From assembly GCA_028286785.1 (NCBI GenBank), contig JAQBQX010000019.1:1-32253 (forward strand): 32,253 nt of DNA, read 5' to 3'. Both the position numbers and the translations under genes were made by a program. Origin of the DNA: Candidatus Adlerbacteria bacterium. Its GTDB lineage: Bacteria; Patescibacteriota; Minisyncoccia; Phycocordibacterales; SBAW01. Below the pieces are notes generated by a model. It was not told the origin of the DNA. It searched no databases and saw only the letters and a program-made list of their open reading frames with translations. Below, piece after piece: positions 1,811 to 8,034 of this stretch (its first letter is position 1; every line of letters starts with the position of its first letter).

Positions 1811-3433
1811 ATGGCAATGACCTCTGTGAGAGAAAAGATAGAACAGGCCGTGGCGCAGACTCTTGCTGACCTTGGCGCTGCGAACGTGCCTTTTGCGGTG
1901 GAGAGGCCTGCTGACATGTTGCATGGCGATTATTCCACCAATGCGGCGCTTGTTGTTGCTAAACTTCTCAAGAAGAACCCGAAAGATGTCGCACAAGAAA
2001 TTGCCGACAAGTTGACTGTCCAGGGTGTTAAGACAATCGACATAGCGGGTCCTGGCTTCATCAACTTTACGCTCGCGGGCAATGCGGTTAAAGATATTGT
2101 GCACGAAGCTCACGAAACCTCGTGGGGGAGCAATAACGCGCGCCAAGGTCAGAAGATCATGGTCGAATATACCGACCCTAATCCGTTTAAAGAGTTCCAT
2201 ATAGGGCACTTGATGAGCAATGCAATTGGCGAAAGTATCGCGCGACTGTTTGAAGCTGGTGGGGCGGATGTAAAGCGCGCCAACTACCAAGGGGATGTTG
2301 GGCTGCATGTCGCTAAAACAATTTGGGCAGTAAAGAATAAAAAAGTTGCTGGGGCCGATTGGGGTGCCGCATATGTTGCAGGAAATACTGCCTACGAAAC
2401 TGATGAGGTGGCAAAAAAAGAGATACAGGAAATCAATGTAAAAGTGTATGACCGCACAGACGACGCTATTAATGCTCTGTATGATGAGGGGCGCGAATCG
2501 TCACTGGCGCATTTTGAAGAGATATACAAAAAACTTGGCACTAAGTTTGATGAATACTTTTTTGAAAGCCAAACATGGAAGAAAGGTTTAGGGCTGGTGC
2601 AAAATAATATAGGGCAAGTGTTTGAGGCTAGCGACGGAGCCGTCATATACCGTGGCGAGCAGGATGGACTGCACACTCGTGTGTTTATTAATGCCGCAGG
2701 CCTGCCAACCTATGAAGCTAAAGACCTCGGGCTATTGGCGCTTAAGGCCGAGAAAGGGGAATTTGATGTATCGGTTACTGTCACTGCGAGCGAGCAGACA
2801 GAATATTTTAAAGTGGTCTTGGCTGCCGCAAAACATATTGATGAGGTACAAGCTATCGCCGAGAGAACCCAGCATGTAAGCCACGGCATGATGCGCTTTG
2901 CTGACGGAAAGATGTCGTCGAGAACTGGTAATGTGGTTACTGGCGAGTCCTTGCTTGCCGACCTGACTGAAGCTGCGCGCGGCAGGGAAGACGTTGCAGT
3001 GGGGGCCATCAAATATACCGTACTTAAATCGGCAAGTAGCAAAGATATCGTCTTTGACCCTGAAAAGTCGCTGTCTCTCGACGGCGACTCGGGGCCGTAC
3101 TTGCAGTATGCATTGGTGCGCACGCGCTCGCTGTTGCGCAAAGCGGCCGAGGCGCAAGTGGTTGATCCTCAACCGGCCGGTGCCATGCCGGTTGAAAGGC
3201 TCATCGTGCATTTTCCTGAAGTGGTTGAATATGCGGCAACAGAGCTCGAGCCGCACTACGTCACCACCTATTTAACCGAGCTCGCGAGCGCTTTCAACAG
3301 TTGGTATGCCCAAGAGCGGCTCATTGTAGACGGCGCCATAACGACCCGCTCGATTGCCGTACTCAAAGCGATAGAGAATACGCTCGCGCAGGGCTTGAAG
3401 GTGCTGGGCATCCCAACTCCGGAGGAAATGTAA
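1811..3433 (+). CDS. argS: Arginine--tRNA ligase
   Basis: Class I synthetase that charges tRNA-Arg. The N-terminal Add-1-like region is followed by NPFKEFHIGH (HIGH at residues 130-133) and a KMSSR version of the KMSKS loop at residues 367-371 (followed by TGNVV). The C-terminal all-alpha anticodon-binding domain carries AFNSWYAQERL. At 540 residues it is of ordinary bacterial length. Two starts are possible: ATG 1811 and ATG 1817. The second lies six bases after a TANNNT hexamer and fits the leaderless pattern of the window. The gene begins 10 bases after the DUF2914 gene and ends 4 bases before the P-loop kinase, so it could also be translated from a longer transcript. Confidence 0.97.
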   Translation: MAMTSVREKIEQAVAQTLADLGAANVPFAVERPADMLHGDYSTNAALVVAKLLKKNPKDVAQEIADKLTVQGVKTIDIAGPGFINFTLAGNAVKDIVHEAHETSWGSNNARQGQKIMVEYTDPNPFKEFHIGHLMSNAIGESIARLFEAGGADVKRANYQGDVGLHVAKTIWAVKNKKVAGADWGAAYVAGNTAYETDEVAKKEIQEINVKVYDRTDDAINALYDEGRESSLAHFEEIYKKLGTKFDEYFFESQTWKKGLGLVQNNIGQVFEASDGAVIYRGEQDGLHTRVFINAAGLPTYEAKDLGLLALKAEKGEFDVSVTVTASEQTEYFKVVLAAAKHIDEVQAIAERTQHVSHGMMRFADGKMSSRTGNVVTGESLLADLTEAARGREDVAVGAIKYTVLKSASSKDIVFDPEKSLSLDGDSGPYLQYALVRTRSLLRKAAEAQVVDPQPAGAMPVERLIVHFPEVVEYAATELEPHYVTTYLTELASAFNSWYAQERLIVDGAITTRSIAVLKAIENTLAQGLKVLGIPTPEEM

Positions 3434-3437
3434 ACAC

Positions 3438-3956
3438 ATGATGAAACCTGCAAAACTTTCCCTTATTGTTATTTATGGCGCTCCTGGTGCCGGCAAGACA
3501 ACTCTTGCGGATTTACTGCATACTGAGCTTTCGAACACAGCGCATATTGGTGTCGACCACATCAAACGATTTATTTCAGAATTCAGAGAAGTCGCCTCAC
3601 ATCAAGATGTAAGTAAAAAAGTTATTAACGCGATGGCTGCAGAATATTTACAAAATCATATTAGTGTCATTGTCGAGCAGGGGATAGATTTGAATGAATT
3701 AAATGCACTTAAAGAAATTGCGGCGGTAAATAGCGCAGAGTTTTTTGTCTATCGCTTGGAAATCTCTCGGGATCTTGCTGACAAACGTGCGGCGGAAAGG
3801 ATGGAGGCTTTGGGTAAGCCGGCAATTCCTCAAGAAGTTCTCGACACACTTAATAGGACACATGAAGGGGTAGATTACTCAAACACTGCGGTATTGAATT
3901 CCGGCGAGCTGACAACCCAAGAAATGGCTGATCGGATTCTTAAAGATTTGATATAA
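3438..3956 (+). CDS. Small P-loop kinase / AAA_33-type ATPase
   Basis: A 172-residue soluble protein beginning with a beta strand and the Walker A loop GAPGAGKTT (about residues 15-23). An Asp in GVDHIKRF is in the position of the phosphoryl-acceptor base of many small-molecule or nucleic-acid kinases. An Arg-rich lid (RDLADKRAAERM) follows. This fits the AAA_33 / zeta-toxin-like / polynucleotide-kinase-like group; the substrate cannot be read from sequence. It starts four bases after argS and lies 51 bases upstream of ileS. The stretch is visibly more AT-rich than the synthetases on both sides, with more AAA, TTT, ATT and AAT codons, which suggests later acquisition. ATG 3438 and ATG 3441 are adjacent; GGAGG at 3421-3425 is rather far upstream. 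Confidence 0.8.
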   Translation: MMKPAKLSLIVIYGAPGAGKTTLADLLHTELSNTAHIGVDHIKRFISEFREVASHQDVSKKVINAMAAEYLQNHISVIVEQGIDLNELNALKEIAAVNSAEFFVYRLEISRDLADKRAAERMEALGKPAIPQEVLDTLNRTHEGVDYSNTAVLNSGELTTQEMADRILKDLI

Positions 3957-4007: not shown

Positions 4008-7000
4008 ATGCCTGACGATCCTAAACAGGGCGGGGAAGAGCTCGAGCGCCCACCCTACACCCCCAAAGGCCCTTTTGCAGAACGCGAAGAAGCCATTTTG
4101 GACTTTTGGAATGAGAGCGAGATTTTTGACCAGACGCTCCGCAAAGACGCGCCCAAAGGCGAGTTTGTATTTTATGATGGTCCGCCGTTTGCCAACGGCT
4201 TGCCGCACTATGGTCACATACTGGCTTCGACTATCAAGGACGCCATTCCGCGGTATCGCACCATGCAAGGCTACCGAGTGCAGCGTCGCTGGGGTTGGGA
4301 TTGTCACGGCTTGCCGGTTGAAAACCTTGTAGAGAAAGAGCTCGGATTTAAGAGCAAGCGCGATATTGAACAATACGGGATAGAAAAGTTTAATGCGATG
4401 GCACGTACCTCGATCATGAAGGACGTGTCCGATTGGAAGCGAATCATCCCGCGCCTGGGCCGCTGGGCTGACATGGAACATGACTACAAGACCATGGACA
4501 CGACCTACACAGAAAGCGTGTGGTGGGCTTTCAAGAACTTGTATGACCGCAAACTAATTTATGAAGGGTACAAGGCCATGCAGCTGTGTCCGCGCTGCGG
4601 CACGACACTTTCAAACTTTGAGGTGGCCCAAGGATACCAAGACATTGATGACATTGCGGTCACGGTAAAGCTCTTGCTCGTTGACGAGCCGAACACCTCG
4701 CTCCTTATTTGGACCACAACACCCTGGACGCTGCCGGGCAACACTGCCGCTGCGGTGAACAGCAAGGCGACCTATATAAAAGTAGAAAAAGACGGCGAAT
4801 TTTTCATAGTCGCAAAAGAGCGCGCTGAGGCGGTCTTTGGCGAAGCGCCTACTGTGGTTGGCGAGATGCTTGGCAAAGCCCTTGTTGGTAAAAAGTACAC
4901 GCCTCCGTTTAACTATTTTAAAAACGAAGTTCACAAACACAAAACCCATGCATGGAAGGTCTATGCTGCCGACTATGTCACGACCGATTCGGGCACCGGT
5001 ATTGTGCACTTGGCACCTGCGTTTGGTGCCGAAGACCTCGAGTTGGCACAAAAAGAAAAGGTCCCGGTCATCCACCATGTGACTGAAGAGGGTAAATTTA
5101 TTGCGACAGTCACAGACTTTGCAGGGCTCCCGGTCAAGCCAAAAGGCCGCCACATGGAAACTGACGTAAAAATCGTGGCATGGCTCGACGAACATAAACT
5201 GCTGTTCAAGCAGGAAAAAATAAAGCACTCGTACCCGCATTGCTGGCGCTGCGACACTCCACTTCTCAACTGGGCTGCAAATTCTTGGTTTGTGAATGTC
5301 CAAAGCGTCAAACAAAACTTGTTGAAGCAAAACAGCAAGGTCTCGTGGGTACCCGACCACATAGGTACTGGGCGGTTTATGAAAGGGCTCGAGAGCGCTC
5401 CGGATTGGGCAATATCCCGCAGCCGCTATTGGGGCGCGCCGCTGCCGGTATGGCGCCACAGCAAAACAAAAGAAGTCCGCGTTGCGGGTTCGGTGGACGA
5501 CATGCTGGGTCTCGTGCGCCGCTCCGGCAATCGGTACTTTGCCATGCGCCATGGTGAGGCACTGAGTAACGTGAACAAGCTCGATGATCTTATGGGCGAT
5601 CCAGAGAATCATATTACTGAAGGTGGTAAAAAGGCTATTCTGTTGACTGCACAGAATCTCAAGAAAGAACACATCGACATGATCGTTGTGTCGCCATTTG
5701 TTCGCACTCAGGAGACCGCGGCCATTGTCCAGCGAGAACTCGGTGTGCCAGGCGCAGCTGTTATGGTTGACGAGCGCCTGCGAGAAGGGGGAAGCCATGA
5801 TGTCCAAGAAGTGCGTCAACGCGTGGGTGAATTTTTGTTTGATGTGGAGCGCCGTTACAGCAACAAAAACATTCTGATTGTGTCGCATGGATATCCGATC
5901 TGGATGCTTCATAATATTGCTGCGCACCAAAAGTCGGACGTCTATGTGAAAACACATTTGCCACAGCTTGCAAGCGTGCAAGAAATTTCTTTTGTTCCAT
6001 ATCCGCACAATCAAAACTTCGAGCTCGACCTCCATCGCCCGTATATAGATGAAGTGCCACTAGGGGACCATCTCAATGGCCGCTGGGAACGCATTCCTGA
6101 TGTGTTTGACTGCTGGTTTGAGTCTGGTTCGATGCCGTTTGCGAGCAATCACTATCCGTTCGAAAAAAACACGTTCGATCCCAAGCGGTTTTTTGGTCTT
6201 GGTGCGAAAGGGTATCCGGCAGATTTTATCGCAGAAGGTCTCGACCAGACCCGCGGATGGTTTTACTCGTTGATTGTGCTGGGTACTGCGCTGTTTGGAA
6301 AAGCTCCGTACAAGCATGTCATCGTCAACGGCCTTATCTTGGCTTCTGATGGTCAAAAAATGAGCAAACGTTTGAAAAACTACCCTGACCCGATGGAAGT
6401 GGTGGAAAAATACGGAGCCGATGCGCTGCGCTATTATCTGCTATCGTCGTCTGTGATCCGCGGAGAAGACTTGCGCTTTAGTGAGCGTGGTGTCGACGAA
6501 GTATCGAAAAAATTGCTGATGCGGCTTGATAACGTGCGCAGCTTTTATGACTTGTATGCGCCGGCAGTGCAGGAAGTGGGCCGGGACAGCGCTATAGGTT
6601 TCAAGGCCTTTGCTTCGCAGCCCGCAGCACTCCACGTGCTTGATCGCTGGATCATATCCCGCTTGGCCCAGGTGGTGCGCGGCACTACAGAGGGTTTTGA
6701 TACCTATCAGCTCGATAATGCTACGCGCCCCTTGCTCGCGTTTGTTGATGATCTTTCCAACTGGTACCTGCGTCGCTCGAGAGACCGATTTAAAACAGAC
6801 GGCAGTGACAAAGTAAACGCACTGGTCACTTTGCGCTACGTGCTCATTACACTTGCGCACACGATGGCGCCTACGATGCCGTTTTACGCCGATGACTTGT
6901 ACCGTCGTTTGAGGACTGATGATATGCCAGAGAGCGTACACTTGGCGCAGTGGCCGATGGCAGACCTCATAGATGAGACCTTGGTGTCTGATATGGTATT

Positions 7001-7454
7001 GGTGCGCGAGTTGTCGTCGCGCGCTTTGCAGTTGCGCGAAAAAGCAGGAGTGAAGATCCGCCAGCCACTAGCCACCCTTACTGCCAAAGCGCTCCCTTCA
7101 GACGAGTCGCTCCATGCGCTTATCGCTGACGAGGCAAACGTTAAGCAGGTAGTGCTCGATGCTAACCTTGCTGATGAAGCCGAGCTCGATACGGTACTCA
7201 CGCCAGAGCTCAAAGAAGAGGGTACTCTGCGCGATCTTGTACGTATGGTGCAAGACCTGCGCAAAAAAGAAGGGCTGACTATTTCCGACCGACCCACACT
7301 GAGCGTTGCTACTGACAAAGACGGAAGTGCTTTTGTCGAGCGCAACAAACATGCCCTGATGGAAGAAACAGGCCTCAGCTCGGTGAATGTAGAAGATGGT
7401 GGTGAGACTGCAAAAGATTTTGTATTTCCGATAACGCTCACGCTTACTGTGTAA
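4008..7454 (+). CDS. ileS: Isoleucine--tRNA ligase with inserted histidine-phosphatase domain
   Basis: Class I synthetase that charges tRNA-Ile, of the archaeal/eukaryote-like type. In order: HIGH variant HYGH (residues 67-70), zinc knuckle CPRCGT, CP1 editing domain with TTTPWTLPGNT and HLAPAFGAED, second zinc knuckle CWRCDTPL, SRSRYWGAPLPVW, GSVDD (494 on), FDCWFESGSMP, GLDQTRGWFYS, KMSKR (784-788), then the anticodon-binding and C-terminal domains. Total length is 1148 residues. Between GSVDDM and DLHRPYIDEV (residue 674), normally only a few tens of residues apart, lie about 165 extra residues. They contain RHGEA (R514, H515), SPFVRTQETA, LREGG and VSHG (H627), the catalytic set of the phosphoglycerate-mutase/histidine-phosphatase superfamily. 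The reading frame is continuous. The next gene, recO, starts one base after the TAA. Confidence 0.96.
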   Translation: MPDDPKQGGEELERPPYTPKGPFAEREEAILDFWNESEIFDQTLRKDAPKGEFVFYDGPPFANGLPHYGHILASTIKDAIPRYRTMQGYRVQRRWGWDCHGLPVENLVEKELGFKSKRDIEQYGIEKFNAMARTSIMKDVSDWKRIIPRLGRWADMEHDYKTMDTTYTESVWWAFKNLYDRKLIYEGYKAMQLCPRCGTTLSNFEVAQGYQDIDDIAVTVKLLLVDEPNTSLLIWTTTPWTLPGNTAAAVNSKATYIKVEKDGEFFIVAKERAEAVFGEAPTVVGEMLGKALVGKKYTPPFNYFKNEVHKHKTHAWKVYAADYVTTDSGTGIVHLAPAFGAEDLELAQKEKVPVIHHVTEEGKFIATVTDFAGLPVKPKGRHMETDVKIVAWLDEHKLLFKQEKIKHSYPHCWRCDTPLLNWAANSWFVNVQSVKQNLLKQNSKVSWVPDHIGTGRFMKGLESAPDWAISRSRYWGAPLPVWRHSKTKEVRVAGSVDDMLGLVRRSGNRYFAMRHGEALSNVNKLDDLMGDPENHITEGGKKAILLTAQNLKKEHIDMIVVSPFVRTQETAAIVQRELGVPGAAVMVDERLREGGSHDVQEVRQRVGEFLFDVERRYSNKNILIVSHGYPIWMLHNIAAHQKSDVYVKTHLPQLASVQEISFVPYPHNQNFELDLHRPYIDEVPLGDHLNGRWERIPDVFDCWFESGSMPFASNHYPFEKNTFDPKRFFGLGAKGYPADFIAEGLDQTRGWFYSLIVLGTALFGKAPYKHVIVNGLILASDGQKMSKRLKNYPDPMEVVEKYGADALRYYLLSSSVIRGEDLRFSERGVDEVSKKLLMRLDNVRSFYDLYAPAVQEVGRDSAIGFKAFASQPAALHVLDRWIISRLAQVVRGTTEGFDTYQLDNATRPLLAFVDDLSNWYLRRSRDRFKTDGSDKVNALVTLRYVLITLAHTMAPTMPFYADDLYRRLRTDDMPESVHLAQWPMADLIDETLVSDMVLVRELSSRALQLREKAGVKIRQPLATLTAKALPSDESLHALIADEANVKQVVLDANLADEAELDTVLTPELKEEGTLRDLVRMVQDLRKKEGLTISDRPTLSVATDKDGSAFVERNKHALMEETGLSSVNVEDGGETAKDFVFPITLTLTV
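5526..6005 (+). other. Histidine-phosphatase domain inserted in IleRS
   Basis: Approximate boundaries of the inserted domain (about residues 507-666 of IleRS). Visible active-site set: R514-H515-G516 (phosphohistidine loop), the Arg of RTQETA, an acidic LREGG, and H627 in VSHG. All are expected to be present in an active branch-1 histidine phosphatase (PF00300 type). The flanking synthetase sequence resumes in register on both sides, so this is an insertion rather than a replacement. The boundaries are estimated by comparison with remembered IleRS sequences and could shift by about 10 residues. Confidence 0.85.
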
Positions 7455-7455
7455 T

Positions 7456-8034
7456 ATGTATGACGTCGTAGTGACCAAAGGCTTGGTGCTCGGCAAACGC
7501 GGGGTGGGGGAGGCAAACACGTTGGTGAGTATCGTGACAGCCGACCTCGGGCTCGTGCGCGCATCGGCCCGCTCTTCTCGTGCAGAAAAATCCAAGCTCC
7601 GCTATGTGCTCGAGCCTCTGACCATGGGGCGGTTTTCTTTGATACGTGGGCGACACGAGTGGCGACTGACCGGGGCAGAAGCGGCTGAGCGTGCGTTTAG
7701 TGCAGCGCTCCCCGAACGGCGCACGGCAGCTGGGCGTATCTCGCGCCTGCTGATACGGCTGATCCAAGGCCAGGAACCGGTCCCTGCATTGTTCGATGTG
7801 GTAGAAAGCGGATTTGCTGCGCTTGCATCTGTGCCCGACGACGAAGCTGTCGGGGTCGAATATATAACCGTGCTGCGCATAGTGTCACTGCTCGGATATT
7901 TGCCTCAGTCACGGGCGCTCGAGCAGTTTGTGGGCACTTCATCATATGGACGTGACCTCAACTTGCAGGCGGGTTCTATGAAGCCAGCTTTGGCCAAGGC
8001 CATCAATACGGCGCTCGAAGTAAGCGGGCTCTAA
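7456..8034 (+). CDS. recO: DNA repair protein RecO
   Basis: Recombination mediator that, with RecR, loads RecA onto SSB-coated DNA. The 192-residue product starts with the OB-fold pattern of RecO (VVTKGLVLGKRGVGEAN ... VTADLGLVRASARSSR) and continues into a helical region. It is shorter than the usual ~240 residues and I see no CxxC zinc finger in the C-terminal half. Starts with the ATG one base after the ileS stop; TACTGT lies five bases before it, but cotranscription with ileS is more likely. Partner genes recA and ssb are elsewhere in this window. Confidence 0.82.
   Translation: MYDVVVTKGLVLGKRGVGEANTLVSIVTADLGLVRASARSSRAEKSKLRYVLEPLTMGRFSLIRGRHEWRLTGAEAAERAFSAALPERRTAAGRISRLLIRLIQGQEPVPALFDVVESGFAALASVPDDEAVGVEYITVLRIVSLLGYLPQSRALEQFVGTSSYGRDLNLQAGSMKPALAKAINTALEVSGL

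Follow-up and report, generated by a model that had tools for sequence, protein, structure and literature searches.

A histidine-phosphatase domain inserted in the isoleucyl-tRNA synthetase of Patescibacteria as a candidate partner in tRNA charging

The isoleucyl-tRNA synthetase (IleRS) encoded in the window, that is, the whole 32,253-nucleotide stretch of a Candidatus Adlerbacteria contig analysed here, contains an inserted branch-1 histidine-phosphatase (HP) domain. The phosphatase is very probably active and retained beside IleRS either by fusion or by translational coupling. Its occurrence as a fused domain in many tiny Patescibacteria, and as a free gene directly upstream of ileS in some insert-less relatives, suggests that a phosphatase cooperates with tRNA charging in a way not yet described. 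The HP-in-IleRS architecture recurs in >150 loci.

The ileS reading frame (Table 1) is uninterrupted, with no stop codons or frameshifts. The Pfam families named for checking in the earlier note, tRNA-synt_1 (PF00133, 449 bits), His_Phos_1 (PF00300, 75 bits, E 7e-21, cut-off 21.7; 83 bits for the excised insert) and Anticodon_1 (PF08264, 97 bits), all match the product, and they follow each other in the order tRNA-synt_1 half, His_Phos_1, tRNA-synt_1 half, Anticodon_1, DUF5915. The same protein exceeds the equivalog cut-off of NCBIfam ileS (TIGR00392; 893 versus 621 bits), so that the reading of an HP domain within an intact IleRS in a single open frame holds. It has the HIGH and KMSKS signatures and the CP1 editing motifs WTTTPWTLPGN and GTGIVHLAPAFG. 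Its closest PDB matches are type 2 enzymes (Priestia megaterium IleRS2, yeast, Candida, Thermus), and these alignments stop at residue 484 and restart at 667. Type 2 IleRS (P. megaterium IleRS2, 8c8v; yeast, 8wnd) and Thermus IleRS (1ile) share the host domains, HYGH, KMSK and the CP1 editing motifs with the window protein, but the aligned PDB structures have no insert at this site, and the window IleRS has lost the cysteines of the second zinc knuckle. A small P-loop kinase (AAA_33/zeta-toxin-like) lies between argS and ileS (3438-3956, + strand); its pairing with the phosphatase was considered and dropped, 0 homologues being present in the other ileS loci fetched.

Table 1. Features of the ileS region, in coordinates of the window
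Feature	Position	Strand	Evidence or remark
argS, upstream neighbour	1811..3433	+	kept beside ileS across loci
ileS, IleRS with inserted HP domain, 1148 aa, type 2-like	4008..7454	+	ORF, Pfam, NCBIfam, AlphaFold
HIGH-type motif HYGH, residues 67-70	4206..4217	+	sequence, conserved column
5' host flank, WGAPLPVW and first zinc-knuckle half (CxxC in relatives, RHSK in the window)	5430..5492	+	
Inserted branch-1 HP domain, residues ~507-666	5526..6005	+	PF00300, AF2, Foldseek
R514-H515 of catalytic RHG (514-516); H515 expected phospho-acceptor	5547..5552	+	invariant in 84-row alignment A1, 99/99 loci
S562 to R566; R566, second pocket Arg	5691..5705	+	invariant
E593, expected general acid	5784..5786	+	invariant in A1; E/D in nearly all wider homologues
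Site of ~30 residues absent in the window's clade	5787..5798	+	HMM gap ~90-119
H627 of VSHG, second pocket His	5886..5888	+	invariant
3' host flank, DLHRPYID and second knuckle half (CxC or CxxC in relatives, LGDHLNG in the window)	6027..6086	+	
KMSKR motif, residues 784-788	6357..6371	+	sequence, conserved column
recO, downstream neighbour	7456..8034	+	kept beside ileS across loci

In the HP superfamily, the first histidine accepts the phosphate, two arginines and a second histidine hold it, and an acidic residue gives a proton. All of these are found in the insert. The positions given in the earlier note, RHG at 514-516 and H627 in VSHG, are right, and its other two motifs, RTQETA and LREGG, are at 566-571 and 591-595. 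Together with the profile score above the cut-off and the alpha/beta/alpha fold, they assign the domain to branch 1. Assignment to a named subfamily by profile was rejected, as every NCBIfam subfamily score is under its equivalog cut-off (SixA 47/74.5, PspA 47/350, CobC 40/163 and dPGM 52/225 bits). In the 84-sequence alignment, only 7 of the 132 HP columns are invariant (R514, H515, G540, S562, R566, E593 and H627); with random placement of the invariants, the chance of five catalytic residues falling in these columns would be ~7e-8. The HP domain is otherwise the faster-evolving part of the protein, with a median pairwise identity of 41% versus 54% for the host core. Strict retention of catalytic residues in a drifting domain is the pattern left by selection for catalysis. 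The same residues are nearly always kept, with the acidic E occasionally replaced by D, in a wider set comprising 159 single-copy IleRS inserts, tandem copies, 11 inserts in valyl-tRNA synthetase (ValRS) and 17 free genes, some of them distant. Within the HP domain, no conserved pocket residues were seen other than those common to the whole superfamily. The description of the domain as complete stands for its catalytic residues and core fold and fails for a segment just after E593, since the compact HP of the window's genus and clade is without ~30 residues that most relatives possess.

Structure prediction is consistent with the sequence analysis. The AlphaFold model of the whole protein, built with the 84 aligned sequences, has a mean pLDDT of 91.7 and a pTM of 0.86, and superimposes on Thermus IleRS (1ile) with a TM-score of 0.92. 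The HP domain and both linkers are mostly above 90 pLDDT, and the linkers joining HP to IleRS are conserved as well as confidently modelled. Modelled alone (AF2), the HP domain reaches a pLDDT of 95.6, and Foldseek finds 266 PDB matches for it at E<=0.001, with PspA, the phosphoserine phosphatase of Hydrogenobacter (4ij6, 4ij5), at the top and PhoE (1h2e) among the first five; the profile search is concordant. PspA, PhoE and CobC, the best profile and fold matches, share with the insert the fold, RHG, the second Arg, the acid and the second His, whereas the window HP is only 22-23% identical to them, lacks the ~30-residue segment and resides in a tRNA synthetase.

Relatives were gathered from 41 related genomes and a GTDB-based collection. 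In this comparison, of the kind that the earlier note had proposed, the insertion site is identical in 99/99 non-redundant loci whose insert could be read; the span from PLPV to LHRP is ~192-239 residues long there and the RH pair is at a constant position. Some close relatives have nothing inserted in this loop. In one insert-free relative (L213), the GSVDDM-side and DLHRPYID-side flanks are contiguous, as had been supposed for ordinary IleRS, and the HP insert therefore splits a zinc-knuckle loop, with one Cys pair on either side of it. This second, four-cysteine knuckle at the insertion loop is common in IleRS, but not obligatory. All four cysteines are missing from the window IleRS, whereas many relatives keep them.

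Slightly fewer than 100 of the 153 genomes sampled from the class show an HP match crossing the IleRS junctions, that is, an HP inside IleRS, and in the phylum sample HP matches at E<=1e-30 were found in 80 of 380 genomes. Outside the class, most of the listed IleRS frames are ~940-1100 aa, the length expected without an insert. The best 80 of 548 matches in a scan of the GTDB collection come from Patescibacteria, unnamed bacterial bins and one bin labelled Spirochaetia; the contig of the latter (L098) bears a Patescibacteria-type IleRS with HP, probably through a binning error. In the tree of the IleRS core there are many switches between inserted and not-inserted states, at least 18 of which are forced by well-supported branches, indicating that the HP trait has repeatedly been lost, gained or transferred with ileS. 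Species assigned to the window's genus (loci L008, L025 and L029) have IleRS far apart from that of the window in the core tree, so that ileS may have been exchanged among Patescibacteria.

Of the sequence evidence, the alternation between fused domain and apparently coupled neighbour argues most strongly that the phosphatase and IleRS are functionally linked. In seven class members with an insert-less IleRS, a close, orthologous free HP gene (~185-210 aa) immediately precedes ileS on the same strand. Five of these genomes belong to one family (G432, G452, G492, G526, G542) and the others are G389 and G314; in all, three families (f182, f41, f36) are involved. The distances from the HP stop to the likely ileS start are -7, -4, -4, -4, +1, +14 and +4 nt, with ATGA overlaps in three of the seven. 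The free gene is located 1-2 kb upstream of ileS in two further genomes (G372, G469) and elsewhere in three (G214, G528, G462). The other insert-less members, a sizeable minority of the class, have no close HP near ileS and, since it is neither inserted nor adjacent there, HP must be dispensable. The HP tree intersperses the directly upstream genes with inserted HPs from the class. A single origin of all main-group free HP genes is not rejected (p-AU 0.25), and a clade of inserted HPs separate from the free ones is weakly rejected (p-AU 0.03). A second, distant HP is encoded in the window's genome by a 290-codon open frame (L262:1261-2130), and a similar distant one lies upstream of an ileS whose product already contains HP (L091:3784-4653).

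HP domains are also found inside ValRS of Patescibacteria (L141, L142, L143, L145, L147-L149, L250-L253), mostly at the loop that corresponds to the insertion site in IleRS, and fall in other branches of the HP tree. Some genomes (e.g. G263, G545, G458) have HP in both IleRS and ValRS. Furthermore, one IleRS of 1572 aa contains three HPs (L144:1881-6596) and four of 1450-1551 aa contain two in tandem (L156, L157, L257, L258), with the catalytic residues kept in each case; the tandem-HP enzymes form one family. The long frames examined from the class and phylum surveys gave no HP insertion in any synthetase besides IleRS and ValRS. Enzyme domains of other kinds (HAD, serine hydrolase, NUDIX, GNAT) occur at several sites inside these two synthetases, alone or with HP, as in a ValRS (L145:2592-6422) and three IleRS (L158:2535-7166, L146:3861-8213, L259:2693-6280).

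We tentatively favour, as possible rather than probable, the reading that a PhoE/PspA/CobC-like branch-1 HP in the zinc-knuckle loop of IleRS has been kept in an active state and works in cis as a partner to the synthetase. It is supported by the profile matches, the catalytic retention, the confident fold and linkers, the upstream free HPs and the reuse of the equivalent ValRS loop. By analogy with the superfamily, H515 would take the phosphate off the substrate and pass it to water, with R514, R566 and H627 holding the phosphate and E593 acting as the acid. With less certainty, the domain may remove the phosphate of a small molecule that is made by, or inhibits, the activation of isoleucine (in ValRS, of valine), and so might keep the local environment of the synthetase clean, although the substrate is a guess. 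A phosphorylated small molecule is favoured because IleRS and ValRS, both hosts of HP, share their activation chemistry and CP1 editing. Counted against the partner proposal are the dispensability of HP and the several copies per IleRS, which, together with the joint presence in IleRS and ValRS, suggest no single narrow job, as well as the conservation of superfamily-general pocket residues only and the absence of the post-acid segment in the window's clade. The chances are almost evenly balanced for the broader idea of a hitherto undescribed step in isoleucine (in some lineages valine) charging, in which a phosphatase provided in cis or from the same message, as an inserted domain or an adjacent gene in alternation, would remove a phosphorylated by-product, inhibitor or regulatory mark.

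Domains added to aminoacyl-tRNA synthetases usually serve tRNA binding, editing or signalling. Among those that we found described, none is a phosphatase built into the enzyme with its active site conserved. HP-IleRS is widespread in a bacterial group that is very large and has hardly been cultured. A literature search for HP in IleRS or for synthetase insertions in CPR bacteria, with subscription journals mostly outside its coverage, returned nothing relevant; the word 'phosphatase' is absent from the AARS Online paper (2024, PMC11580382), and in a 2026 domain-insertion study tRNA synthetases appear only for editing domains and as general hosts. The nearest precedent is the MetRS-aminotransferase of Mycoplasma penetrans, where the added metabolic enzyme domain was shown to supply the amino acid for MetRS (PMC7694997). 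As in our case, the genome is reduced and the enzyme domain is carried by a class I synthetase; however, the M. penetrans domain is an N-terminal appendage of unrelated chemistry, whereas the window HP is a loop insertion tied to IleRS by genomic linkage only. NCBIfam NF040702 describes an IleRS with an N-acetyltransferase, likewise a small enzyme domain on IleRS, but a different one (the window protein scores 338 against a cut-off of 1999). HP is fused end-to-end with another enzyme in PFK-2/FBPase-2 and in RNase H/acid phosphatase (PRK07238, the top NCBIfam profile for the insert with 66 bits, cut-off 326), but in these it is not inserted and has no link to tRNA charging. The questions raised are which phosphorylated compound needs removal beside IleRS and ValRS, and why tiny genomes gather hydrolase domains there.

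Next in rank after the small-molecule partner comes an active general-purpose phosphatase unlinked to charging, which would ride in an insertion-tolerant loop of an essential protein that is always expressed, fusion or coupling merely securing its expression in a very small genome. The HPs in ValRS, the presence of as many as three HPs per protein and the unrelated NUDIX, HAD, serine hydrolase and GNAT domains at several sites of the same hosts suggest that Patescibacteria generally tend to equip IleRS and ValRS with hydrolases. They are the main argument for such a passenger, which would also fit the patchy gain and loss over the IleRS tree. Yet the free HP is placed directly upstream of ileS in three families rather than just anywhere in the genome, HP insertions were met in IleRS and ValRS only among the long frames examined, and the linkers are conserved and confidently modelled rather than floppy, so that this explanation appears somewhat unlikely.

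Regulation by dephosphorylation of a macromolecule, be it the synthetase itself, a partner protein or a damaged or phosphorylated tRNA end, is quite improbable. In its favour, the matches include phosphohistidine phosphatase of the SixA type (42-47 bits, cut-off 74.5, not reached), and the compact HP of the window resembles SixA in being without a segment. However, most relatives have the longer form akin to the small-molecule phosphatases PspA and PhoE, and no partner kinase is conserved, the kinase gene beside the window's ileS being absent at all other loci fetched. Ranked last among the functional explanations, and very doubtful, is a non-catalytic role, in which HP would sense a phosphorylated metabolite by binding or structurally replace the zinc knuckle. 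Over non-redundant sequences, the zinc cysteines are indeed absent from 73 of 139 readable HP-bearing IleRS versus 6 of 27 without HP (Fisher p 0.006, uncorrected for kinship). Nevertheless, E593 and all other catalytic residues stay while the remainder drifts, although a sensor or scaffold needs no acid, and the domain occurs as a free gene too. Finally, an assembly chimera or frameshift, which the earlier note had named as refuting its reading, has nothing found in its favour and a negligible probability, being refuted by the independent assemblies that share the architecture across the >150 loci.
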